A stretch of 64,000 bases of DNA. Origin: Paraeggerthella hongkongensis. GTDB taxonomy: Bacteria > Actinomycetota > Coriobacteriia > Coriobacteriales > Eggerthellaceae. The DNA lies in contig NZ_PPTQ01000005.1 in the NCBI RefSeq assembly GCF_003340345.1, forward strand, positions 88,322 to 152,321, in the 5' to 3' direction. This document shows, piece after piece, positions 1,576-15,915 of the stretch. The notes beneath the pieces were generated by a model, which did not search any database, was not told the origin of the DNA, and saw only the letters and a program-made list of their open reading frames with translations. A program made the position numbers and the translations under genes. Positions within the stretch are counted from its first letter, which is position 1. Every line of letters begins with the position of its first letter.

Positions 1576-2151
1576 ATGAAAAAGAGCAACGTCATCGTCT
1601 TTGCCCTGCTTGCGGCAATCTCGGTATTTCTGCTGTGGCTGTGGTACTTCTTGGGCTTTAACCGGGTCGACGATCCGCTTGACCTGGTTTTGTCCATCGT
1701 ATGGTGGGCGGTTATCGCGGTTTCCATTGCGGTCATCGTTCGCGCGGAGCGGGTTCGCCGTCGGCGCATTAGAACCGTGTACGTAGGCGATAATGCCACG
1801 TTCAACAGCGAAAAGGGGCTTATGCGCTTTTCGGAGGGGGAGCCCATGCAAGACGTGGTAGCTTCCATTGTTGAAAACTTGAAGTACGACTTCACGCGCG
1901 AGGAGTTTCCCGATAAGGAAGCGTTCCAAGCGAAGTATTTCGTGCGCACGAAGGAATTCCGGACGGAAGAAAGCCCCGAGGCCGTAAAGGACCAGTCGAT
2001 GGAATCTGCTCAGACCGCATTGGATTCCTCTGCGTCCGCGCGCCGCGCATGGACGGGCGAAGTGGTCGTTGCGGCCACTGGCGAGGAAAAGCCGTTTGGA
2101 ACGCCCGAAGAATTGGCTGCTATTTTGACCACGCTAGGAGCTGCGGCTTAA
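1576..2151 (+). CDS. Small membrane protein of unknown function, linked to the surface protein
   Basis: A 191-residue protein starting at ATG after a good GGGAGGA ribosome site. The N-terminus holds two membrane helices (about residues 6-28 and 38-58) followed by a basic run (RAERVRRRRIR), which places the remaining 125 residues in the cytosol. The soluble part is acidic and I recognise no domain in it. The gene starts 16 bp after the repeat-bearing surface protein and ends at a strong terminator, so the two are probably one transcript. A role in export or anchoring of the neighbour is only a guess from position. Confidence 0.75.
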   Translation: MKKSNVIVFALLAAISVFLLWLWYFLGFNRVDDPLDLVLSIVWWAVIAVSIAVIVRAERVRRRRIRTVYVGDNATFNSEKGLMRFSEGEPMQDVVASIVENLKYDFTREEFPDKEAFQAKYFVRTKEFRTEESPEAVKDQSMESAQTALDSSASARRAWTGEVVVAATGEEKPFGTPEELAAILTTLGAAA

Positions 2152-2181
2152 AAGCCGCCTTTCTGGTCGCGCTTGCATCGA

Positions 2182-2358: not shown

Positions 2359-4068
2359 ATGAGGAGCTATCGACTTAACGACATCGAGGAATTACCCGAC
2401 CTGCGTCATCTGCTCGAACGCAGCGCGCGGCTCTTTTCGGGTAAAACCGCATTTGCCGAGCTGTCGCGTTCTTCGGGGCTGCGCGAAGTGAGCTACGCTT
2501 GCTTTCTCGAGGACGTGCGGGCCCTGGGCACCGCGCTTTTGGAGCGCGGGTACGCCGGCAAGCGCATCGCGCTCATCGGGGAAAACTCCTACGCGTGGAT
2601 TCTTGCGTACTTCGCGATCGTCAACAGCGGGATGACGGTGGTTCCCTTCGATAAAGAGCTTTCCTGCTCTGAGATCGTCGACCAAATGGCAAGGGCGAAC
2701 GTTGATGCGCTGTGCCATACTGCATCGTACGCGCCCGAGGCGCGTCGCGCGGCCGATGCGTTGAAGGAGCGCCGCGGGCTCGATGTGGAGCTTTTTGACA
2801 TGGGGTCGTTGTCTGCGGGCGAATTGGCATGTGACCTGCTTTCTTGCGGGCGAGATCAGATCGCGCTCGGCAACGATCGGTACGCGCGGGTTGAACTGGA
2901 TCCGGATGCGGTGTGCTCGATTTTGTTCACATCGGGAACCACGGGCGTGAGCAAGGGCGTTTTGCTGAGCCATCGAAACTTCGCATCCAATATAAAAGGG
3001 GCTTGCGAGCTGGTGCTTTTCGGCCCGCAGGATACGCTGGTCTCCGTTCTCCCCATCCATCACGCCTACGAGGACATGGCGGGCATCTTCTGTCCGTTGT
3101 ACTATGGGTGCACCGTGGGGCTCTGCTCCGGTTTGAAAATGCTCCCGAAATGCCTCGACGCGTTCAAGCCTACCATTCTGTGCTTGGTCCCCTTGTACGT
3201 CGAAACGTTCAGAAGCAAGATTCTTCGCGCCGCAAAAGAGGGCGGCCGCGAACGACAACTTGCTTTCGCCTGCAAAGCAAGCTCGCTGCTTCGGCGCATT
3301 GGCGTCGACGTTTCGGACAAGTTGCTCGCGCAGCCCCGGGAGGCGTTCGGCGGCCGTCTGCGACTTGTCATCTGCGGAGGAGCGCCGCTCGATCCAGCCT
3401 ATGCGCCGTTTTACCGCTCTCTCGGCATCAATCTTATTCAAGGGTACGGCATTTCCGAATGTTCTCCCATTGTTTCGGTCAACCGCAACAACGAGTTCAA
3501 AGACGATTCCGTTGGCCGAGTGATTTCGTGCGCGCGCGTGCGGTTCGACGAAAGCGGGCAGATTTGGGTCAACGGCCCGTCGGTCATGGCGGGGTACTTG
3601 GATGAAGAAGCCGAAACGCTGGTCGACGGTTGGTTTCCAACGGGCGATCTGGGATGTTTGGACGCGGATGGGTTTCTGCACATCACGGGTCGGTGCAAAG
3701 ACATCATCGTCCTGAGCAACGGCAAGAACGTTATGCCCCAGGAAATCGAGCGTGCTTTGACGGCGTGCGATTCCGTAGCCGAAGCGGTGGTTATCGGCGG
3801 GCCTGGAACAGGCAACGGTTCCGAGTGCTTGGCGGCGCACATCTACCCGGACTTTGAAGCTATCGGGTTGGATGCGAAGTCTCCAGAAGCTGCGGCGGCC
3901 GCTCGGGATCGGGTGCGCGCCGATATCAGGCGCGTTAACAGGGGCCTGGCGTTTTACAAGCGCATAGCAACGTTTGCGGTGCGCGCCGAGCCGTTCGAGA
4001 AAACGACAACGCGCAAGGTAAAGCGGTTTTTGCTTGTTGAGGATACGAAGGGAATGGTACATGTTTGA
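2359..4068 (+). CDS. Fatty acyl-AMP/acyl-CoA ligase (ANL superfamily), first gene of the NRPS operon
   Basis: A 569-residue adenylate-forming enzyme. The ANL motifs appear in order: LFTSGTTGVSKG (phosphate loop, about residue 194), GYGISECSP, GWFPTGDLG, TGRCKDIIVLSNGKNVMP and a C-terminal TTRKVKR lysine. The overall form is that of long-chain acyl-CoA synthetases. It ends 8 bases inside a free acyl carrier protein and lies upstream of a PPTase and an NRPS. The likely job is therefore to activate a fatty acid and load it on the carrier rather than on CoA; the substrate is not readable. The only in-frame start is ATG 2359, which has no Shine-Dalgarno sequence. A TAGAAT hexamer at 2338-2343 would give an almost leaderless mRNA. 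Confidence 0.88.
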   Translation: MRSYRLNDIEELPDLRHLLERSARLFSGKTAFAELSRSSGLREVSYACFLEDVRALGTALLERGYAGKRIALIGENSYAWILAYFAIVNSGMTVVPFDKELSCSEIVDQMARANVDALCHTASYAPEARRAADALKERRGLDVELFDMGSLSAGELACDLLSCGRDQIALGNDRYARVELDPDAVCSILFTSGTTGVSKGVLLSHRNFASNIKGACELVLFGPQDTLVSVLPIHHAYEDMAGIFCPLYYGCTVGLCSGLKMLPKCLDAFKPTILCLVPLYVETFRSKILRAAKEGGRERQLAFACKASSLLRRIGVDVSDKLLAQPREAFGGRLRLVICGGAPLDPAYAPFYRSLGINLIQGYGISECSPIVSVNRNNEFKDDSVGRVISCARVRFDESGQIWVNGPSVMAGYLDEEAETLVDGWFPTGDLGCLDADGFLHITGRCKDIIVLSNGKNVMPQEIERALTACDSVAEAVVIGGPGTGNGSECLAAHIYPDFEAIGLDAKSPEAAAAARDRVRADIRRVNRGLAFYKRIATFAVRAEPFEKTTTRKVKRFLLVEDTKGMVHV

Positions 4069-4288
4069 TCGCGTTCGAAGCATCATCCAGGGCTACATCC
4101 AGCGCGACGACCTGGAGATCACGCTTGATACCGACGTGCTGAGCGACCTGGGCATCAACTCGCTTGAGTTGGTGGAGCTGGTGTGCGCGTTCGAGATGGA
4201 ATTCGACCGGGAGATACCGGAAAAAGACATTCGCCAGTTCGTGACGGTCGAAGACATCGTGCGTTATCTGGAAGCGATCGAAGCGTAG
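4061..4288 (+). CDS. Free-standing acyl carrier protein
   Basis: A 75-residue acidic helical protein with the carrier motif LGINSLELVEL, whose Ser is the phosphopantetheine site; the usual Asp before Ser is Asn here. ATG 4061 follows GAAGGGA and overlaps the ligase stop by 8 bases; an upstream in-frame TTG at 4034 is less likely. The free carrier probably accepts the acyl chain from the ligase and presents it to the first condensation domain of the NRPS. It is activated by the PPTase encoded 11 bp downstream. It could instead serve general fatty-acid synthesis, but the gene context argues against that. Confidence 0.88.
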   Translation: MFDRVRSIIQGYIQRDDLEITLDTDVLSDLGINSLELVELVCAFEMEFDREIPEKDIRQFVTVEDIVRYLEAIEA

Positions 4289-4299
4289 GCTGAAGCGCC

Positions 4300-4962
4300 G
4301 TGGACCTGTTCCTTGCATCCGTGCCCGCCGCTGACGAGAAGCTGCTCGCCAAAGCGGCGCTTCCCTTTGCGACGCCGGCGAAGCGCGCCCGCATGGAGCG
4401 TTGCCGCGTTGCGCAGCAGCGCGCGGGCATGGCGCTCGCCGAGGTTCTGCTTGCGTGGGCGCTGCATGAAAAGCGGGGCGTGAACTTGCGCGCCGTTGAG
4501 CGCTTCGAGGGCGATTACGGAAAGCCGTTCGTGCGCTACGCTGACGGCTCGGTCGAATTCAGTTTGAGCCATTCCGGATCGTACGTCCTGGTCGGGATCG
4601 ATGATGTCCCCATTGGCGTGGATATCCAGCAACGGCGCCAGGCGGACGAGCGGCTTGCGCGCAAGGTTATGGACGCGGCCTCGTTCGAAGCATGGCTGGA
4701 ATCTTCCGACAAAGCAACGCTCTTCTGCGATTGCTGGGCTCGCATGGAAAGCGAGCTGAAGTGGTGGGGAGTTGGAATCGCGGGTCTTGGAAGGGCCGAT
4801 CTTGTTCTTCCGGAAGGCGTGTCGTCATGCGCGGTTGATGCTCCTGCCGGGTATTCGGCTTCCGTGTGCGCTGCGTTGCCGAAACCCGCCCCGTTGCGGG
4901 CGTCTCCTCGAACCGTGCAGATTGAGGAGTTGCTTGCTTTTGCCGAAAGGGAAGGGCTGTGA
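4300..4962 (+). CDS. 4'-phosphopantetheinyl transferase, Sfp type
   Basis: A 220-residue protein of the pseudodimeric Sfp/Gsp size class. It transfers the phosphopantetheine arm of CoA onto carrier-domain serines. Visible motifs are YGKPFV, FSLSHSGSYVLVGI, the metal-binding GVDI and WARMESELKWWG. The last corresponds to the usual W-x-K-E-A-x-x-K box, with the acidic residue kept but Met in place of the first Lys. It starts at GTG 4300. It lies between the free carrier protein and the NRPS, so it should activate three sites made by this operon: the free carrier and the two NRPS T domains. The C-terminal half is divergent, and activity is inferred. Confidence 0.85.
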   Translation: MDLFLASVPAADEKLLAKAALPFATPAKRARMERCRVAQQRAGMALAEVLLAWALHEKRGVNLRAVERFEGDYGKPFVRYADGSVEFSLSHSGSYVLVGIDDVPIGVDIQQRRQADERLARKVMDAASFEAWLESSDKATLFCDCWARMESELKWWGVGIAGLGRADLVLPEGVSSCAVDAPAGYSASVCAALPKPAPLRASPRTVQIEELLAFAEREGL

Positions 4963-5034
4963 TCGTGAAGCAAAACGAGGATACCCGTAGCGCGTTGCCG
5001 TTGCCCGATGCGCCGGCGCGCGCAAGCAGAAACG

Positions 5035-5040
5035 AAGGAG
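5035..5040 (+). promoter_or_regulatory. Ribosome binding site deciding the NRPS start
   Basis: AAGGAG lies 8 nt before ATG 5049, and the first condensation domain (YPLTHPQSRIW) begins five residues later. An alternative GTG at 4959 overlaps the PPTase stop and would add 30 residues without recognisable function. Confidence 0.6.
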
Positions 5041-5048
5041 CGTCCCTT

Positions 5049-8000
5049 ATGGCAGGTCGGTATCCGTTGACTCACCCGCAGAGCCGCATTTGGCATGTCG
5101 AGCAATCGCATCCGGGAACCAGCATGTGGAACAACGCCGGTACGCTCAAGATTCGCGGGCGTCTTGATTTCGATTTGCTGGACAAGGCCATTCAGCTGTT
5201 TTTGGAGGCGAACGAGTCTCTTCGCTTGCGCATCTGCCTTGTCGACGGCCAGCCCATGCAGTATGTGGCTGCACATCGGCCCGTACATATCGATCGACTG
5301 GATTTCAGCTCCACGGGCGTGAAGGGGCTGTATGAGTGGGATGTTCGTCAAACGCAGGCGCCCATGTCGCTGATCGACAGCCCCCTCTATTACTTCGCTT
5401 TGGCGAAAACCGCCCCCGACGAGGGGTACCTGTACGCGAAGATGCACCATATCATCTCCGACGGCGTGTCGTTCGTGGTGTTCGCAAACGAGGTCATGGA
5501 CTGGTACGACATGCTTTTGCGCGGGGAAACTCCCGTGCCCCGGCCTGCAATTTCGTATCTCGATTACGTCGAGGAGGAACGTCTCTATCGGGAATCCAAG
5601 CGATTCGCTTACGACGAGGCGTACTGGCTCAAGCGGTTCTCCGACTTCTCCGATGCCACGCTGCTCAAGCCTCGAACGTCGGACTGCTTTGCAACGAAAG
5701 CGAAGCGCAAGGCGTGCGTGCTTTCAGCTGAGCTTTCCACGGCGGTGCGGGGCTTTTGCAAAGAGCATCGCGTGTCGGTGTTCGCGTTGCTGCTGTCCGC
5801 GTTTTCCGTGTATCTGAATCGCGTGTTGGGGAAAGAAGACCTGGTCATAAGCGCTCCTGTATCGAACCGCACGTTCGCGGGGTCCAGTGAGCGTTTCGGT
5901 ATGTACGTGAGCACGGTGCCCGTGCGGGTGGCGGTCGACAACGAGCGTGCGTTTTTGGATTTTGCCGAAGGGGTGTCCAACGAATGGTTTTCCGTTCTCA
6001 AGCATCAGCGGTATCCGTACGACGTGCTCATGGAGAAGATTCGCGAACGTCGTCCCGACATCGACCAGCTGTACGATATTTCCTTGTCGTACCAGGTGGG
6101 GACGTTCGAAACGAAGAAGCGCTGCTTCTCCTACGAAGGGCGTTGGCATTTCAGCGGGCATCAGGCATCCTCGCTCAACATTCACTGGAACGATCGCGAG
6201 AACAACGGGCGTTTCGTGCTGGATTACGATTACCTCTCGCCCCTGTTCGCGGCGAAGGAAGTTGATTTCATCCACGAGCATTTGTGCAACATCGTAGCCG
6301 ATGCCGTTGCTCATCCCGAAAAGCGGCTTTTCGAGCTTGCCATGGTTTCTGCGGAAGAGCGAGACAAGGTGCTGTACCGGTTCAACGACACCGATGACGG
6401 CTTCGAGCGAACCGACCTGGTCAGTCTGTGGAAGCGCCGCGTTGCCGAGGGCCCTTGCGAACCGGCGTTGACCTATCGCGGTCGAAGTTGGACGGCGGCC
6501 GATTTGGACCGGGCCTCCGACGAGGTTGGCAACGTGCTCGCGAACGCGGGGGTTGCGCCGGGCGATGTGGTCGCGCTTGCGTTGCCGCGAAGCGACGTCT
6601 ACTATGCGGCCATGCTGGGCGCCCTCAAGGCGGGCGCGGCGTTCATGCCCATTGATCCCTCGCTTCCCGAGGAGCGCGTTCGCTATATGCTGAACGAGTC
6701 AGGCACGCGGTTCGCGCTGGTTGGACCAGGGGATTTGGAGGACCGACAGAAGGGGGCGCTCCTGTCGGTCCCCGTGGCCTCGCTGCGCGCCGAGGAGCTT
6801 GTGCGGCGCGTTTCTTGCGTGCGATCGGAGGCGGCCGCGGGGAAGAGCCGCTGCTTGGAGGGTGCTGCCTCAGAGGGGATCTGCGCTGCACGGCGCTTTC
6901 CCGATCCCGGCCAGGCGGCGTACCTCATCTACACGTCGGGCTCGACCGGCACGCCGAAGGGCGTGGTGGTCGAACATGCGCAGATTGCCCACTTCGTGCT
7001 GTCGATGCGCGCGGTGTGGGGTCGCACCCCCGGCGGCAGGATGCTGTGCGTGGGGCCAGTGTCGTTCGACATCAACATCATGGAGGCGGCTGTCGGCTTG
7101 TTCTCGAACCGTACGCTCGTGGTGGCCGACGATCGGCAGGCCGACTACCCCGACGACCTGTGCGCGCTTATGGGGAAAGAGCGCGTGGACCTTATGATGG
7201 TCACGCCGGGACGCATGGAGATGATCCTTTCGGCCCAGGCGGGCGCTCATGCGCTGCGAGGGGTTCGGGAGATCGGATTGGGGGCCGACGTGCTTCCGCC
7301 CGAGCTGCTGCGGCGCATCCAGCAGGTTACGTCGTCGTGCGTCACGAACTTCTACGGACCTACCGAAGTGACGATTGCGGCCACGTGCTGCGACGTGACC
7401 GGCCGTGTCGACGTCAACATAGGTCGGCCCATGAACGGCGTGCGCGTCTACATTCTGGACCCGCACCTCAATCCGGTTCCGATTGGCGTTCCAGGTGAGC
7501 TGTACGTTGGAGGCGCTGGCGTGAGCAGGGGATACGTTGCGCGTGCCGAGTTGACGGCCGAGCGCTTCGTGCCGTCTCCCTTCGTGGAAGGGGAGCGTCT
7601 TTACCGCACGGGCGACGTGGGCCGCTGGTATCCGCTTGGCGAAATCCAGTTTCTCGGGCGCATCGACCGCCAGGTGAAGATTCGCGGGTACCGCGTTGAG
7701 CTGGGAGAGATCCAGAACAGGCTGCTGCAGTTGGAGGGGATCCGTTCGGCGGCGGTGGTGGCGCACGACGAGCAGGACGGACGCAAATCGCTGTGCGCGT
7801 ACGTGGCGGGGGACTGCGTGCCCCCTGCTGCGCGGATGAAGGCGCACCTGTCCGAATCGCTGCCGTTCTACATGGTTCCCTCGTGCTTCGTGGAGCTCGA
7901 CGAGCTTCCTCTTACGACAAGCGAAAAGCTTGACGTGCGTCGTCTCCCCAAGCCTCAACGGGAGGCGGTGGGCGCGCGCTCGTTCGAAACCAATACTCAG

Positions 8001-11000
8001 CGAAAGCTCGCGGAGCTGTGGGAGGGCATCCTGGGGATGGGTTGCGTTCGTCCCGACGATCACTTTTTCGAAATCGGCGGGGATTCGCTGTCCATCGTGC
8101 GCATGATAGCCGCAGTGGCCGATGCCTTCGATGCGAACATCGATTTGGTGGACGTGTACCGCGACCCGACGCTTGCCGCCTGTGCCGCGCTGATCGATCG
8201 GGCGGAGGCCAGCTACTGCAAGCCGGTGAAGCCCGTGGCAGCGCGCCGTTACTATCCGGCCACGTCAACGCAGCAGCGCATGGTTTTGGCGGCAAGCGAG
8301 GCCCCCGATTCCGTTGCTTACAACGTGCCGGCGTTGTTCGTGTTCGAAGGCATGCTCGACGAGGACCGGCTCAAGGCCGCCTTGGAAAAGCTGCTCGCTC
8401 GGCATGCCGTTCTGCGCACGTCGCTGCACGTGCGCGACGGCGCGATCGTGCAACGGGTTCATCGTTCGGTCGAGGTGCCGTACGAGTCGGTTGCGTGCGC
8501 CGACGCCCGCATCGCGGCATGCGCGAAGCGGCGCGTTCGGCCCTTCGACGTCTCAAGCGCTCCGCTCATGCGGCTTGTCTCCATTCGAACGCCCCGGCGG
8601 CATGCGTTGCTGTTCGACTTCCATCATGCCGTTTGCGACCAGGCGGGGCTTCGGATCGTGCTCGACGACTTCGCCGCTTTGTACCAGGGGGACGCGTTGC
8701 CTCCTCTTGCCGTCGATTACAAAGATTGCGCTGTTTGGCTGGAGGGGCGCCTTGCCTCGGACGCTTTGGAGCAACATGCGGCGTATTGGCGCGAACGGCT
8801 TTCCGGTGACCTTCCCGTGCTGGCCCTGCCCACCGAGCGCCCTCGAACGGGCGAACGGAAGGGGGCAACGTGCGAGGCGCGCATCGCCGCGAGCGCGCTC
8901 GCATCGTTGCATGCCCTTGTCCGCTCCCAAAAGGCAACGATGGCTACGGCGCTCATGACCGTGTTCGGGCTGGTGCTTTCCCGTACCGCCTTGCAAGACG
9001 AGGTGGTGATCGGCATGCCCGTGGAAAACAGGATGCAACCCGCGATGCAGCATACGGCGGGCGCTTTCATCAACACGGTTCCGGTGCGGTGCGCGTTTTC
9101 GGACGGGCAGACCGTCCGCGCATGCTTCGACGCGGTGCATCGCGCTTTGAGCGAAGCCGTTTCCCATCAGGATTATCCGTTCGAGTGCATCGTGGCCGAT
9201 GCGGGAGCCGCGCGTCAGCGCGGGCGCAACCCGTTGTTCGATGCAATGCTCGTGTTCGGGAAAGACCAGGTGAACTTGACGCTTGAAGGCGTATCCGCAA
9301 CGCCTCGGTTCGTGGACGTTGCAACGGCGAAGCTCGACGTGACGCTGTTCGCCTACGAAGCGGCGGACGGCCTGACGTTCAGATTGGAGTACGATCGAAA
9401 CCTGTTTTCCGCTGCAGCAGCGCGGCGCATGCTCGATCGTTTCGTCCATACCGCAGCAACGCTATTCGAGGCTCCCGACGAGGGCGTCGCGCGCGTGAGC
9501 GTGCTGCCCTTGGAAGAATATCAGCTGGTGACAAGCGGGTTTGCGGGAGATAAGGTGCCCGTTCGCAACCGGCCTCTCTGCGCGTGGGTGGAAGACCTTG
9601 CCGACCAGCGCCCGTGCGACGAAGCCGTTGTGGCCTCGGACGGTCGGCTGACGTTTTCCGGGTTGGATCGGCAAGCCGACTGCATCGCATGCGCTCTTGC
9701 CGAAGCAGGGGCAGGGCCCGGAACACTGGTGGCTGTCATGATGCGTCGCAGCGCGGCGCTGCTTCCGGCTTTGTTCGGCGTTATGAAAGCGGGCGCTGCT
9801 TACGTTCCCGTCGACCCGACGTATCCGGCTGATCGCAAGGCGCTCATGCTGGCCGATAGCGGGGCGCGCCTTGTGCTGGTCGATCGCCAAACATGCGACG
9901 CCTGCCCGGAGGTCCCGTCCGCCGCGGCAAGGGTGGTCGTCGAGGATGCGCTTCTTGCGCGCGCCTCGTTGGATTCGGCGCGGGCTCGCAGCGAGCGTAT
10001 GCGCAGGTGCGCCGAGGCGAAGCCGGACGACCCTGCGTACGTCATCTACACAAGCGGGTCGACCGGGGTGCCGAAGGGAAGCCTTCTTACGCGTGCGGGC
10101 GTGGCGAACCTGCGCGATGCTATGGCTTCGTGCATCGGCTACCGTCCTGCATGGACCGCGGTCTCGGTGACCACGATGTCGTTCGATATCTTCGTTGCGG
10201 ACGCGCTGCTTCCCTTGACGTACGGCTGCCGTACCGTGCTCGCCGACGAAGAGGAACTTCGACAGCCTCGTTTGCTGACCGGTCTTATCGAGCGCGAACG
10301 GGTCGATTTTCTGCAGGCGACGCCCTCACGCATGCAAATCATGGTGCGCGACCAGGCGTTCGTCCAAGCGGCTTCGCGGCTTTCGACCGTGGTGCTGGCA
10401 GGAGAGAAGCCGCCGCTTCCGTTGGTTCGAACGTGCAAGCGCATCATGCCTGGCGCACGTCTTAAAAACGGGTACGGCCCGACCGAGGTGACCGTGTACA
10501 CTTCGTTTCAGGATATGACCGACTGCGCGTACGTGAGCATTGGGCGACCTATCGCGAACACGCGCGTCTACGTGCTCGACGAGGCGCTGCGGCCTGTTCC
10601 CGTGGGAACGTACGGGGAAGCCTACATTGCCGGAGCGGGAGTGTCGCCGGGCTACATCGGCCGCCCCGATCTGAACGAGTCGCGCTTTCTCCCTGATCCG
10701 TTTCACGAGGGAAGCGTTATGTACCGATCGGGAGACGTCTGCCGTTACGACGAGCACGGCGAGCTGTTCATTGCAGGGCGCGTCGATCATCAGGTGAAGG
10801 TGCGCGGTTTGCGCATCGAGCCCGGCGAGATCGAAGCGGCCCTGTGCGCTCTTGACGGCATCGCCGAAGCTGTGGTGGTGGCGCACGGGGCGGGAGAGCG
10901 CAAGCAGCTGGTTGCGTACTATACGGCGTCCGAGCCGCATGAGGTTTCGCGGTTGCGGTCTGCGCTTGCGGCGCAGCTCCCTTCGTTTTTGGTGCCCGCG

Positions 11001-12569
11001 CGCTTCGTTTATCTTGAGGCCCTGCCCGAAACGGCAAACGGAAAGGTGGATCGCGGGCGCCTTCCCGATCCGGACGCGAGCGCTTGCGCGACGACGGCCG
11101 AGCCTTCCCGCCCGCTTTCCGGCGCGCCTGAGAAGCGGGCGTATTCGGCCGAGGAACGACGGCTCCTGCGCGCGATCGAGCACGTCCTGGGAGTGCGCGG
11201 CGTCGGCCTGACCGACAACGTGTTCGATCTGGGAGGCGACTCCTTGGCGGTCATCTCCATCCAGGCGCGGCTCGCCCCGCACGGGTGGACGCTGCGCACG
11301 CAGGATTTCTACGATGCCGATACCATCGGGGATCTGCTCGCACGTGCGCACATGCCTGGCGCGAAGAGCGTTTCCGAGCATCAGCAGAACACGGGCGGAA
11401 GCGCATCGGATCGTCGTTTAGCCGATCGAAGCGAAGCGGCGGCATCGGTTGCGCGCAATGCGGCAGCGGCTTGCGAAAAGCCCGTTGCCGCATGTTCTCT
11501 CGACCGTGTGCTTGTAACGGGAGCGACCGGGTTTCTGGGCGCCCATGTGGTGGCGGAGCTTTTAGCTGCGGGCGCGGGGGAGGTGCTTTGCCTGGTGCGC
11601 GCCGCCGACGACGTCGAGGCGCAGGTGCGCCTCGATCATGCACTGGCAGCTTACGGGATGGACTTTGCCCCTGCGGTCCGCGCCGTGCGTGGAGACGTGT
11701 CGAAAGACGATCGCGGTTTGGCTGCGTCGCTCGGTGCGATCGACGCGGTGTTTCACTGCGCAGCCATCACCGACCATGTTGGTCGGCGCGAGGAGTACGA
11801 ACGCGTCAACGTCGAGGGCACGCGTCGCATGCTGGAGCTGGCCGCTATGCTGGAAGCGCAGTTCATGCACGTGTCGACGATGAGCGTGGCCGGCAGGGGC
11901 GGTGCGCTGTTCGACGAGCGATCGTTCGACGTGGGGCAAGACGTCGATTTCAACGAATACGCTCGAAGCAAGTACCGGGCTGAGGCCGTCGTGCTCGACG
12001 CTTTCGCGAAGGGCGCTGCGGGTCGCGTGTTTCGCGTGGGGAATCTGACGGGCCGCGCTCGTGACGGGGCGTTTCAGCGCGACGTTCATCGCAACGCCTT
12101 CGCGATGCGCATTGCCGCTTACGCCCGTTTGGGATGCTATCCTGAAAGCCTGGCCGAACGGTTCGAGATGACGCCCGTCGACTCCTGCGCGCGCTCCATC
12201 GTGCTTTTGGCAACGTGCGACTCGCATTGCATTGCGCACGTATGCAGCGATCGGCAGATCGACGTCAAGGAGCTTGCCGCGCTTTTGCGGCGTTGCGGCC
12301 ACCCTGTTGAGCCGGTGTCTGACCAGGCGTTTGCCCAGCGCGTTTCCGAACGCCTGAACAGCGAGTTCAAAAGCTTGTTCGGCATCGTTCGGGATGTTGT
12401 GGAACGCCCTGCCGCCCAACCCACCGAGGCGTCGGTGGCGGCCACGTGCGCTGCGTTGCAGGCGAAGGGCTTTTCCTGGCCGGACCCCGATGCGGCGTAC
12501 TTCGCCCCTTACTTCGCTCAGATTCAAGCCGCCGTCGAGGCTTCGGGCCCCGTTCGAGAAAGGAGCTAA
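5049..12569 (+). CDS. Non-ribosomal peptide synthetase, C-A-T-C-A-T-reductase, two modules
   Basis: A 2506-residue megasynthase; an alternative GTG start at 4959 would add 30 residues. Domains in order: C1 (about 5-440, HHIISDG at 133); A1 (about 460-940, YTSGSTGTPKG near 628, YGPTE at 769); T1 (Ser near 1013 in GGDSL); C2 (about 1060-1490, HHAVCDQ at 1192, with Gln in place of the usual Gly); A2 (YTSGSTGVPKG near 1667, YGPTE at 1809); T2 (Ser 2065); and a C-terminal short-chain-dehydrogenase-type thioester reductase (TGATGFLG near 2157, Y2304-ARS-K). There is no thioesterase or epimerase. It should join two amino acids, probably after N-acylation by the upstream ligase and carrier, and release them by NAD(P)H reduction as an aldehyde or alcohol. 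The histidine-kinase start follows its stop after one base. Confidence 0.93.
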   Translation: MAGRYPLTHPQSRIWHVEQSHPGTSMWNNAGTLKIRGRLDFDLLDKAIQLFLEANESLRLRICLVDGQPMQYVAAHRPVHIDRLDFSSTGVKGLYEWDVRQTQAPMSLIDSPLYYFALAKTAPDEGYLYAKMHHIISDGVSFVVFANEVMDWYDMLLRGETPVPRPAISYLDYVEEERLYRESKRFAYDEAYWLKRFSDFSDATLLKPRTSDCFATKAKRKACVLSAELSTAVRGFCKEHRVSVFALLLSAFSVYLNRVLGKEDLVISAPVSNRTFAGSSERFGMYVSTVPVRVAVDNERAFLDFAEGVSNEWFSVLKHQRYPYDVLMEKIRERRPDIDQLYDISLSYQVGTFETKKRCFSYEGRWHFSGHQASSLNIHWNDRENNGRFVLDYDYLSPLFAAKEVDFIHEHLCNIVADAVAHPEKRLFELAMVSAEERDKVLYRFNDTDDGFERTDLVSLWKRRVAEGPCEPALTYRGRSWTAADLDRASDEVGNVLANAGVAPGDVVALALPRSDVYYAAMLGALKAGAAFMPIDPSLPEERVRYMLNESGTRFALVGPGDLEDRQKGALLSVPVASLRAEELVRRVSCVRSEAAAGKSRCLEGAASEGICAARRFPDPGQAAYLIYTSGSTGTPKGVVVEHAQIAHFVLSMRAVWGRTPGGRMLCVGPVSFDINIMEAAVGLFSNRTLVVADDRQADYPDDLCALMGKERVDLMMVTPGRMEMILSAQAGAHALRGVREIGLGADVLPPELLRRIQQVTSSCVTNFYGPTEVTIAATCCDVTGRVDVNIGRPMNGVRVYILDPHLNPVPIGVPGELYVGGAGVSRGYVARAELTAERFVPSPFVEGERLYRTGDVGRWYPLGEIQFLGRIDRQVKIRGYRVELGEIQNRLLQLEGIRSAAVVAHDEQDGRKSLCAYVAGDCVPPAARMKAHLSESLPFYMVPSCFVELDELPLTTSEKLDVRRLPKPQREAVGARSFETNTQRKLAELWEGILGMGCVRPDDHFFEIGGDSLSIVRMIAAVADAFDANIDLVDVYRDPTLAACAALIDRAEASYCKPVKPVAARRYYPATSTQQRMVLAASEAPDSVAYNVPALFVFEGMLDEDRLKAALEKLLARHAVLRTSLHVRDGAIVQRVHRSVEVPYESVACADARIAACAKRRVRPFDVSSAPLMRLVSIRTPRRHALLFDFHHAVCDQAGLRIVLDDFAALYQGDALPPLAVDYKDCAVWLEGRLASDALEQHAAYWRERLSGDLPVLALPTERPRTGERKGATCEARIAASALASLHALVRSQKATMATALMTVFGLVLSRTALQDEVVIGMPVENRMQPAMQHTAGAFINTVPVRCAFSDGQTVRACFDAVHRALSEAVSHQDYPFECIVADAGAARQRGRNPLFDAMLVFGKDQVNLTLEGVSATPRFVDVATAKLDVTLFAYEAADGLTFRLEYDRNLFSAAAARRMLDRFVHTAATLFEAPDEGVARVSVLPLEEYQLVTSGFAGDKVPVRNRPLCAWVEDLADQRPCDEAVVASDGRLTFSGLDRQADCIACALAEAGAGPGTLVAVMMRRSAALLPALFGVMKAGAAYVPVDPTYPADRKALMLADSGARLVLVDRQTCDACPEVPSAAARVVVEDALLARASLDSARARSERMRRCAEAKPDDPAYVIYTSGSTGVPKGSLLTRAGVANLRDAMASCIGYRPAWTAVSVTTMSFDIFVADALLPLTYGCRTVLADEEELRQPRLLTGLIERERVDFLQATPSRMQIMVRDQAFVQAASRLSTVVLAGEKPPLPLVRTCKRIMPGARLKNGYGPTEVTVYTSFQDMTDCAYVSIGRPIANTRVYVLDEALRPVPVGTYGEAYIAGAGVSPGYIGRPDLNESRFLPDPFHEGSVMYRSGDVCRYDEHGELFIAGRVDHQVKVRGLRIEPGEIEAALCALDGIAEAVVVAHGAGERKQLVAYYTASEPHEVSRLRSALAAQLPSFLVPARFVYLEALPETANGKVDRGRLPDPDASACATTAEPSRPLSGAPEKRAYSAEERRLLRAIEHVLGVRGVGLTDNVFDLGGDSLAVISIQARLAPHGWTLRTQDFYDADTIGDLLARAHMPGAKSVSEHQQNTGGSASDRRLADRSEAAASVARNAAAACEKPVAACSLDRVLVTGATGFLGAHVVAELLAAGAGEVLCLVRAADDVEAQVRLDHALAAYGMDFAPAVRAVRGDVSKDDRGLAASLGAIDAVFHCAAITDHVGRREEYERVNVEGTRRMLELAAMLEAQFMHVSTMSVAGRGGALFDERSFDVGQDVDFNEYARSKYRAEAVVLDAFAKGAAGRVFRVGNLTGRARDGAFQRDVHRNAFAMRIAAYARLGCYPESLAERFEMTPVDSCARSIVLLATCDSHCIAHVCSDRQIDVKELAALLRRCGHPVEPVSDQAFAQRVSERLNSEFKSLFGIVRDVVERPAAQPTEASVAATCAALQAKGFSWPDPDAAYFAPYFAQIQAAVEASGPVRERS

Positions 12570-12570
12570 C

Positions 12571-14388
12571 GTGGACGCTGCTTCCGCAATCGTGTTGACG
12601 GTGGTTCTCATCGCGCTGGTCGCCATGCTGTGCTACGTGGCGTTCGCCAAAGAGAAGAAAACGCTTCACTACCTGTTCATCACCATCATCATCGAGCTGA
12701 TCGTGTGGAATACGGCGGTGCTCGGCGGCAAGTACGTTGCCGCCGATCCGGGGCTTTCCGTGTTCGTTGACAACTTCGCCTACTTTGGGGCCGCATTTGT
12801 GCCGGTCACCATGCTGCTGCTGGGTTTGGCGTACCAGAAAAGCTTCAAAGGCTTTTCGAAGGCTTACGGGCTGCTGTTCGTGTTTCCCGTTATCACGATG
12901 GTTGTGATATTCACGAACGACTTCCACCATCTTTTCTACCTTTCGTACACGCCGGGCGTGGGGTACGTGCAGGGGCCGTACTTCGTGTTCTACGCCCTGT
13001 ATTCGTACGCGTGCCTGTTCACCGGCATGGGGCTGCTGTGCTATACCGCCATCAAAACCTCGGGCGTGCTTTCGCTTCAGGCGCTGCTCAACGTTGCGGC
13101 TGCGCTTATTCCCACGGTCACGAACATCTGCTACACGCTGCACGTTCCCGGCTTCTACGTGTACACCACGCCGGTTGCGTTCACCATCACCGTGCTGCTT
13201 TACATTGTGTCGCTGTTTCGATTCGGCTTCCTTAAAACCGTTCCCATTGCCACGCAAACCGTCATCAATCGCATTTCGGACTGTTTCGTGGTCATTGATC
13301 GCGAACTCCGCATGCTCGATTGCAACGAATCGTTCACGCGCCAGTTCTACGATCGATCGAACGCCCAGAAAAAAGCGAAGCTCGACGATTTGCTGATCGG
13401 CATGGGATTGTCCGCCGACCAGGTTGTCTCCGTTCGTTGGAACACTGCGGTTGCCTTCGAGTCCGGCCGTTTGCAAACGGCCGACCTTGCCGTCGAAACG
13501 GGCGAAGGTCCTTTGTTCTACACGGTTGAGTACACGCCTTTGTCGGAGAGCTTGTCGTATCCGGCGCTCGTGCTGTTGTTCAAAGACGTCACGCAGCACG
13601 TGCTTGACCTGCAGGCGCTGCGCGACAATCAAGATATCCTGCTTGAGCGGGAGCGCTTGGCTTCGCTCGGGCAGATGATCGGCGGGATCGCACACAATCT
13701 CAAAAGCCCCATTCTGGCTATTTCGGGAGGAATCGACCAGGTGCAATGGCTGGTGTCGGAGTATCGCGACTCGGTAGGGGACCAGGAGGTTACCGACGAC
13801 GACCATCGCGAGATCGCCCGCGATATGGACGAGTGGCTTGCGAAGATGAAGATCCAGCTTTCGTACATGTCCGACATCATATCCACCGTCAAGGGGCAGG
13901 CAGCCCAATTCAGCGAGGACTCCTCGCATCCGTTCACCGTTGGCGAGGTGCTGAAGCGAACGCAGATACTCATGCAGCATTCGCTCGTGAAGGGCGGATG
14001 CACGCTGGAAACCGAGGTGAACGTCAATCGTGAGCAGGTGGTGTTCGGCGACGTGAACAGTCTTGTCCAGATTCTAGATAACGTCATCGACAATGCCATC
14101 CATGCGTATAATGGGGATGGTGGCACGATTAAGCTGAACGTGGAGCCGGTCGAGGACGGCGTGCGGTTCTCCGTTTCCGATCAAGGGGCGGGCATTGCGC
14201 CCGACGTTCAAAAGCTCCTGTTCAAAGAGATGACGACAACAAGGGGCAAGCATGGGACCGGGCTTGGCCTGTACATGTCCTACAGTACGGTAAAAGGCAT
14301 GTTCCGCGGCAGCATGTGGTTCGAAACACAGCCGGGCGCGGGCACCACGTTCTTCATTCAGATTCCTTTGGCAGGAAAGCGAGGGTAG
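12571..14388 (+). CDS. 7TM sensor histidine kinase co-transcribed with the NRPS
   Basis: A 605-residue membrane kinase starting at GTG 12571, six bases after AGGAG and one base after the NRPS stop. The N-terminal 220 residues form about seven hydrophobic helices, resembling the 7TM sensor region of some histidine kinases. A PAS-like segment follows (ISDCFVVIDRELRMLDCNES). The kinase core has H375 in GGIAHNLKSP, the N box DNVIDNAIHAY near 503, and GTGLGLY near 562. The response-regulator gene starts 6 bp downstream. The ligand is unknown. The position suggests that it senses the peptide product or a membrane-soluble cue tied to it; this is inference. Confidence 0.88.
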   Translation: MDAASAIVLTVVLIALVAMLCYVAFAKEKKTLHYLFITIIIELIVWNTAVLGGKYVAADPGLSVFVDNFAYFGAAFVPVTMLLLGLAYQKSFKGFSKAYGLLFVFPVITMVVIFTNDFHHLFYLSYTPGVGYVQGPYFVFYALYSYACLFTGMGLLCYTAIKTSGVLSLQALLNVAAALIPTVTNICYTLHVPGFYVYTTPVAFTITVLLYIVSLFRFGFLKTVPIATQTVINRISDCFVVIDRELRMLDCNESFTRQFYDRSNAQKKAKLDDLLIGMGLSADQVVSVRWNTAVAFESGRLQTADLAVETGEGPLFYTVEYTPLSESLSYPALVLLFKDVTQHVLDLQALRDNQDILLERERLASLGQMIGGIAHNLKSPILAISGGIDQVQWLVSEYRDSVGDQEVTDDDHREIARDMDEWLAKMKIQLSYMSDIISTVKGQAAQFSEDSSHPFTVGEVLKRTQILMQHSLVKGGCTLETEVNVNREQVVFGDVNSLVQILDNVIDNAIHAYNGDGGTIKLNVEPVEDGVRFSVSDQGAGIAPDVQKLLFKEMTTTRGKHGTGLGLYMSYSTVKGMFRGSMWFETQPGAGTTFFIQIPLAGKRG

Positions 14389-14394
14389 CATTGT

Positions 14395-15915
14395 ATGCGC
14401 AAGCGGCGTAGTCGGGAGGTTTCCGAGGAATACCGTATTATGGTCGTCGATGACGAAGAGGGGATCATCGACACCGTTGTTGCCATGGTGAATCGCAGCG
14501 GATACTGGTGCAAGGGGTTCACCAATCCGCTTGAAGCGCTCGAGGAGCTTGAGCGCGAGCACTACGACCTGCTCATCCTCGACTATTTTATGCAGCCCAT
14601 TCACGGCGACGAGGTGGTCGAGCGCATTCGCAAGACCGATTACGAGCTGTACATACTTCTTCTGACCGGGCATAAAGAGCTTGCGCCGCCGGTGAGCACG
14701 CTCAAGTCTTTGGCTATTCAGGCGTATTGCGAGAAAAGCGACCGCACCGACCAGCTGCAGCTGTTGGTGGAATCCGGCGTCAAGTCCATCAGCCAGATGC
14801 GCACCATAAAGCAGTTCCAGGAAGGGCTCAACAGCATTTTGGGCGCCGTCCCCAAAATCTACCAGCTTCAGCCCATCGGCAACATACTCGAGGAGATTCT
14901 TCGTCAGATCCTGCCCTTGGTCAACGGCGAGGACGCGTTCATTCTCATAGACGAGCTGCCCGAGTCGTTCGATCCTGCGGCGGGCACGGGCTCTCAAGAG
15001 CGCAAGAGCATCTTCTGCGGCATCGGCGCGTACCGCGGCTCGGTGGATTCGTTCACCAGCCTTTTGGATCACGATCTCATGGAGGCCGTCGGCCGCGCGC
15101 GCACGGATTGCGCGCTCGTGCATGCTCCCGAGGGCGTGGTGCTGCCGCTGTGCGACGAGCAGAAGCGCTCGCTCGGGGTGATTTACGCGCGCAACGTGTC
15201 GAGCGAGTACGGCATCAAGCTTTTGGAGATTTACGCCCATCAAGCTGCATCGTCTATCAGCAACGCGTTTCTGCATTCGCTCGTCAATATCAAAAACGAA
15301 GAACTGCATGACACGTACGCGCAGCTCAAGCAGCGGTACATGGATACGGTCGAGGTGCTGCGCCTGGCGGTCGACGCGAAAGACGAGTACACGCGCGGCC
15401 ACTCCGATCGCGTGGCGGCCTTGGCGGTGGAGATCGGTCGAGCGTACGGGTTCGACGCCGATGCGCTCGAAGAGCTGCGGGTGGCCGGCCTGTTCCACGA
15501 CATCGGCAAGATCGGGACCGCCGACGATATCCTGCTCAAAACCGACACGCTCGACGATGCCGAGTACGAAGAGATCAAGCGTCATCCCATGAAGGGAGCC
15601 ATGATCTTGTCGGCCGTGTCGATGTTCGAGAGCATTGTGCCCGTGATCAGGCACCATCACGAGCGTTACGACGGACGGGGCTATCCTGACGGCATCGCCG
15701 GTCAGGACATCGAGCTGAACGCGCGCATTATCGCGGTGGCGGATGCGTTCGATGCCATGACCTCGGATCGCCAGTATCGGGCGCATCTTTCGTTCGAAGA
15801 TGCGGTGCAGCAGCTGCGCGACGGCGCGGGCACCCAGTTCGATCCCTCCGTGGTCGATTGCATGCTTCGCCTGATCGAGACGCAGCCGAGAATCTTGCAC
15901 ATCGTGCGTCGTTAG
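14395..15915 (+). CDS. Response regulator with HD-GYP output domain
   Basis: A 506-residue protein: N-terminal receiver domain (DDEE acidic pocket, phosphoacceptor D63 in LLILDY), a GAF-like middle region (about 150-320), and a C-terminal HD-GYP domain (FHDIGKIG with H368-D369, HHHERYDGRGYPDG with GYP at 429-431). HD-GYP proteins usually hydrolyse cyclic di-GMP or related dinucleotides. No diguanylate cyclase is encoded in the window. The gene follows the histidine kinase by 6 bp and closes the NRPS operon, so phosphorylation by that kinase is the natural reading. There is no DNA-binding domain, so any feedback on transcription would be indirect. Confidence 0.9.
   Translation: MRKRRSREVSEEYRIMVVDDEEGIIDTVVAMVNRSGYWCKGFTNPLEALEELEREHYDLLILDYFMQPIHGDEVVERIRKTDYELYILLLTGHKELAPPVSTLKSLAIQAYCEKSDRTDQLQLLVESGVKSISQMRTIKQFQEGLNSILGAVPKIYQLQPIGNILEEILRQILPLVNGEDAFILIDELPESFDPAAGTGSQERKSIFCGIGAYRGSVDSFTSLLDHDLMEAVGRARTDCALVHAPEGVVLPLCDEQKRSLGVIYARNVSSEYGIKLLEIYAHQAASSISNAFLHSLVNIKNEELHDTYAQLKQRYMDTVEVLRLAVDAKDEYTRGHSDRVAALAVEIGRAYGFDADALEELRVAGLFHDIGKIGTADDILLKTDTLDDAEYEEIKRHPMKGAMILSAVSMFESIVPVIRHHHERYDGRGYPDGIAGQDIELNARIIAVADAFDAMTSDRQYRAHLSFEDAVQQLRDGAGTQFDPSVVDCMLRLIETQPRILHIVRR

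Follow-up and report, generated by a model that had tools for sequence, protein, structure and literature searches.

The window, the whole 64-kb stretch of Paraeggerthella DNA that was analyzed, carries six tightly packed, co-directional genes on the + strand between positions 2359 and 15915. These encode a predicted acyl-AMP ligase (AL), a free acyl carrier protein (ACP), a 4'-phosphopantetheinyl transferase (PPTase), a two-module NRPS, a membrane histidine kinase (HK), and a response regulator (RR). The features of the locus are as follows:

2143..2158, + strand: terminator-like hairpin where the preceding gene ends, taken as upstream border (consensus scan only, weak)
2359..4068, + strand: AL, predicted to activate a carboxylic acid starter (Pfam AMP-binding, 2e-62)
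4061..4288, + strand: free ACP of 75 residues, predicted acyl donor to C1 (PP-binding, 7e-13; ACP models)
4300..4962, + strand: PPTase (Pfam ACPS, 8e-8)
4959..12569, + strand: two-module NRPS, C-A-T-C-A-T-R, 2536 aa (Pfam)
5061..6353, + strand: C1, starter-type condensation domain, HHIISDG (starter C structure matches; tree)
6396..7994, + strand: A1, pocket code DIMMGGFIAK (placed by motif)
7995..8204, + strand: T1, IGGDSL (Pfam, motif)
8244..9533, + strand: C2, elongation condensation domain, HHAVCDQ (motif, structure matches, tree)
9591..11108, + strand: A2, pocket code DI(A/T)QVAGVYK (placed by motif)
11136..11333, + strand: T2, LGGDSL (Pfam, motif)
11499..12566, + strand: R, terminal thioester reductase, TGATGFLG, ST..S, YxxxK (NAD_binding_4, 7e-39)
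12571..14388, + strand: HK, 7TM and PAS-like, 605 residues (HisKA_7TM, 7e-37; HATPase, 3e-23)
14395..15915, + strand: RR, REC-DUF3369-HD-GYP, 506 residues (Pfam REC, DUF3369, HD)

Pfam domains and intact frames on the + strand bear out the functions that the first-pass annotation had given to these six co-directional genes, but the gaps of up to about 90 bp that it reported between them were mistaken. AL and ACP overlap by 8 bp and PPTase and NRPS by 4 bp, while gaps of 11, 1, and 6 bp separate ACP from PPTase, NRPS from HK, and HK from RR, respectively. The HK start is GTG 12571, preceded by a Shine-Dalgarno sequence (AAAGGAG) inside the last NRPS codons, and orthologue alignments begin there; the long open reading frame from 12394 was rejected as the gene on these grounds. 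With the start corrected, the gaps between genes, where there are any, therefore do not exceed 11 bp. The hairpin at the upstream border is weakly supported, since the terminator consensus scan found 10 hairpins against 18.9 expected in shuffles. Upstream of the cluster, at positions 186-1559 of the window, a gene encodes a probable surface protein containing MBG (YGX) repeats, and the downstream flank is pstSCAB-phoBR, which was considered as part of the unit and rejected because the flanks differ in every genus. No exporter is encoded within the six-gene unit.

The three leading genes form a predicted acyl-loading set. AL matches many acyl-CoA ligase families, the closest NCBIfam models being fatty acid--CoA ligases, every one below its cut-off. 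The ACP carries the motif DLGINSLEL and is 100% identical to that of P. hongkongensis and 69-86% identical to those in other families of the order. For PPTase, the top NCBIfam model is AusB, also below cut-off.

The NRPS is the sole condensation-domain gene of the genome, and its Pfam content (two Condensation, two AMP-binding, and two PP-binding domains with a terminal NAD_binding_4), together with the motifs, upholds the C-A-T-C-A-T-reductase order originally proposed. The diagnostic motifs (HHIISDG, GGDSL, TGATGFLG, Ser/Thr, and YxxxK) are kept in the orthologues wherever the respective domains are present. In the C2 motif HHAVCDQ, Gln stands in place of the canonical Gly in every orthologue from the three families. 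C1 matches the starter condensation domains RzmA-Cs (7c1k) at 111 bits and CdaPS1-Cs (4jn3) at 81 bits, and 12kh at 77 bits; C2 matches RzmA-Cs at 63 bits, with CdaPS1-Cs and 12kh not matched at 1e-10. The 12kh structure probably corresponds to OaaC, the fatty-amide condensation domain of PMC13142362. C1 groups with RzmA-Cs at 99% in a small tree whose branches are long and which contains a single starter reference, and it is the most conserved domain of the NRPS in the orthologue comparison. Since the ACP is also identical between the two Paraeggerthella, this conservation points to a conserved acyl start. In RzmA, R148 controls acyl chain length (PMC7804268), and the aligned residue in C1 is Phe in five of five orthologues, which might, speculatively, indicate a short or unusual acyl chain.

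The A2 pocket code is common to all five orthologues, and the A1 code changes from DIMMGGFIAK in the window to DLMMGGFIVK in a genome from another family (G043). With codes so nearly unchanged, all five probably share one dipeptide core. The A2 code presumably falls loosely among Phe/Tyr codes, and we know of no pocket code that the A1 code resembles. The best PDB match of R is 6vtj, which we take to be an archaeal T-R didomain, followed by AusA (4f6c/4f6l), with MxaA lower at 97 bits. An inactive reductase, which the first-pass annotation had named as evidence that would speak against an aldehyde, was looked for, and both the nucleotide-binding and the Tyr/Lys motifs of R proved intact.

The two remaining genes encode a putative two-component pair. 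The H, N, and G boxes of HK are kept in the orthologues, and the protein stops after the HATPase domain, without REC or HPt. In RR, the REC residues D63 and Lys, the HD motif, and HHExxDGxGYP are kept in 6 genomes, with HDISK instead of HDIGK in G043. Because the genome holds 22 GGDEF matches, c-di-GMP is probably in use in the host. In G087, the 7TM domain of HK shows 80% identity, which exceeds the 65% of the PAS-like region and comes close to the values for the kinase domains. In G043, it is just 52% identical against 76% for the DHp domain, so that the 7TM sensor is not exceptionally constrained.

A strict-pattern scan of genome contigs returned P. hongkongensis only, and strain DSM 16106 (L023) carries the same cluster at about 95%. 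All six genes occur in the same order in G043, at 45-82% identity, and in G087 and G120, which belong to a third family, at 47-86% identity, where AL is cut by the contig end in G087 and the cluster is split across two contigs in G120. The order is thus kept in three families of one order, counting that of the window, with unrelated flanking genes. G043 has acc/fab genes and an MFS transporter beside the cluster, whereas the flank holds a methionine-type ABC transporter in G120 and a PLP enzyme in the case of G050. In G043, the acc/fab fatty acid synthesis genes lie upstream of the cluster and are divergent from it (L026:656-6692). Since gene order persists across families while the flanks differ, these six genes are the evolutionary unit. 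Their arrangement is not due to chance, given the intact frames, the dN/dS of 0.00-0.20 against P. hongkongensis, and the gene order kept across families.

An orthologue of C1 was found in 5 of 389 Coriobacteriales genomes, all five among the six (of 397) that hold an RR orthologue; the sixth is G050, a fragmented MAG, 85% complete, with HK and RR but without the NRPS in its assembly. HK orthologues were found in the same six genomes within a 249-genome sample of the order, and HK and RR are always adjacent where assembled. Both were found solely in genomes with the cluster or, in the case of the MAG, with part of it. This MAG was weighed as a possible exception to the co-occurrence. Its HK/RR contig begins inside HK, and its assembly also contains an N-terminal AL orthologue fused to PhoU-like sequence (L082:166-1892), probably a misassembly or a broken gene. 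Counted by genus in the first 249-genome sample, the probability of chance co-occurrence is about 2.5e-5. At 1e-70, a phylum sample of 396 genomes yielded no RR orthologue beyond the window's own genome. Between families, identity is 75-85% for RR, 54-69% for the NRPS, and 63-64% for AlaRS (where AlaRS was found), and between the two Paraeggerthella dN/dS falls from 0.10 in the NRPS to 0.06 in HK and 0.03 in RR (range across the genes, 0.00-0.20). By these measures HK and RR are more constrained than the NRPS, and this constraint, taken with their co-occurrence with the cluster, marks them as dedicated to the system.

This cluster is not the only one in Coriobacteriales with an NRPS that ends in a reductase. 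G029, from the same family, encodes another two-module reductase NRPS at about 30% identity (L028:8533-15768), with a MatE exporter and a stand-alone A domain nearby and no HK/HD-GYP homologue near that locus. In another family of the order, NRPSs of ~3050 aa match through the reductase region (L046 and L048-L051, from G134, G144, G183, G240, and G198). The earlier statement that no example of such an aldehyde operon has been described in Coriobacteriia agrees with a search of the open-access literature.

NRPS clusters of gut Clostridia produce N-acyl dipeptide aldehydes, among them N-octanoyl-Met-Phe-H (BGC0001686) and ruminopeptin (rup), an N-acyl Leu-Glu aldehyde (PMC8518294; PMC12327764). 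Likened by description, the present cluster shares with these two modules and a motif-intact terminal reductase, as well as the parts for acyl initiation (starter-type C, ligase, and carrier), and differs in its Coriobacteriales host and in having its own 7TM HK and REC-HD-GYP regulator in the operon. In the open-access literature, outside which the primary cluster papers lie, no report was found of a two-component pair accompanying the clostridial clusters. The use of a free ACP as predicted acyl donor is shared with the oaa fatty acid amide pathway of gut bacteria (OaaC/OaaACP), in which a free ACP donates the acyl group to a condensation domain related to starter C domains (PMC13142362), although here C1 has a canonical HHxxxDG motif and sits within a full two-module NRPS with a reductase.

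AusA of Staphylococcus releases a dipeptide aldehyde by two-electron reduction (PMC8210680), and AusA/AusB resemble the present proteins in their two modules, AusA-type reductase, and AusB-like PPTase. The cluster departs from the aureusimine family in possessing a starter-type C1, AL, and ACP. AusA is not known to have a starter C domain, and the aldehyde that it makes keeps a free amine and cyclises to a pyrazinone.

The best-supported product is thus an N-acyl dipeptide aldehyde, a reading that can be held with good confidence because C1 is of the starter type, AL and ACP are co-conserved, there are two modules, and the AusA-like R is intact. Of the acyl-dipeptide aldehyde initially proposed, then, the assembly-line anatomy is well supported, and the structure itself stands as a prediction. 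AL would activate a (fatty) acid and load it onto the free ACP, which would be primed by the PPTase of the cluster and is the probable acyl donor. C1 would move the acyl group onto the first amino acid on module 1, C2 would join the second, and R would free the N-acyl dipeptide as an aldehyde which, because its amine is acylated, could not cyclise to a pyrazinone. The co-translated 7TM kinase would then sense the product, or its effect on the membrane, and phosphorylate the REC-HD-GYP protein, lowering c-di-GMP.

It is improbable that no stable aldehyde forms, with R reducing to an alcohol or a non-fatty starter (e.g., an aryl or short acid) yielding another acyl-dipeptide derivative. The match of R to MxaA, the failure of AL to pass any NCBIfam cut-off among its many matching families, and the Phe at the RzmA R148 position would fit such a product, but 6vtj and the AusA reductases outscore MxaA, and the G043 cluster lies beside fatty acid synthesis genes. 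Between two- and four-electron reduction, the sequence cannot decide. A distribution as patchy as this one, with 5-6 of about 397 genomes, could likewise be read as that of a rarely used, horizontally spread relic with HK and RR hitchhiking, yet strong purifying selection and catalytic motifs intact in the copies examined make this very hard to credit.

The link to the kinase and regulator, merely hinted at in the first-pass annotation, has become the strongest point of the case, with HK and RR confined to cluster-bearing genomes or the one partial MAG. This co-occurrence makes sensing of the cluster's product the best explanation for the pair, although the chance that the kinase does so may be about even, and the whole reading, that of a self-contained make-and-sense module, is just as finely balanced. 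A less likely account is that the cluster makes a protease inhibitor while the kinase reads an independent cue (envelope or proteolytic stress, or a nutrient) that sets c-di-GMP and in this indirect way adjusts production or self-protection. The N-acyl dipeptide aldehydes of gut Clostridia have been reported to inhibit protease and proteasome (PMC8518294), the output domain, HD-GYP, is not of the DNA-binding kind, and the PAS-like cytosolic region of the kinase may carry the real cue. Such an account leaves it unexplained that the other ~390 genomes of the order lack HK and RR, yet that the two always adjoin where assembled.

In the RpfF-RpfC-RpfG (DSF) system of Xanthomonas, genes for a membrane kinase and a REC-HD-GYP regulator accompany that of an acyl-product synthase (PMC6337780), and it is this layout that the present locus resembles. 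The synthase here is an NRPS line, the enoyl-CoA hydratase domain of RpfF being found in none of the six proteins, and the kinase, unlike RpfC, is not a hybrid and has a 7TM sensor, for which the product is the presumed ligand. In Klebsiella, a peptide-aldehyde pathway is tied to signalling via leupeptin-derived pyrazinones (PMC11480411).

Since such aldehydes are known from gut Clostridia, the chemistry is of a known kind in a new lineage, and the new element is its wiring with an accompanying 7TM kinase and HD-GYP regulator. That the operon is always accompanied by its own membrane sensor and a predicted c-di-GMP-degrading regulator suggests a signalling role for the molecule as well. It is tentatively proposed, at somewhat less than an even chance, that the aldehyde serves in Coriobacteriales as a cell-to-cell or self-sensed signal with a dedicated switch from 7TM HK to HD-GYP and c-di-GMP, an NRPS counterpart of DSF/Rpf of independent origin. 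Gut dipeptide aldehydes may act to inhibit proteases, to modulate the host, or to signal. A cluster with its own sensor and c-di-GMP output would offer a direct route to testing a signalling role, which is feasible because the cluster is also present in a named relative, P. hongkongensis DSM 16106.
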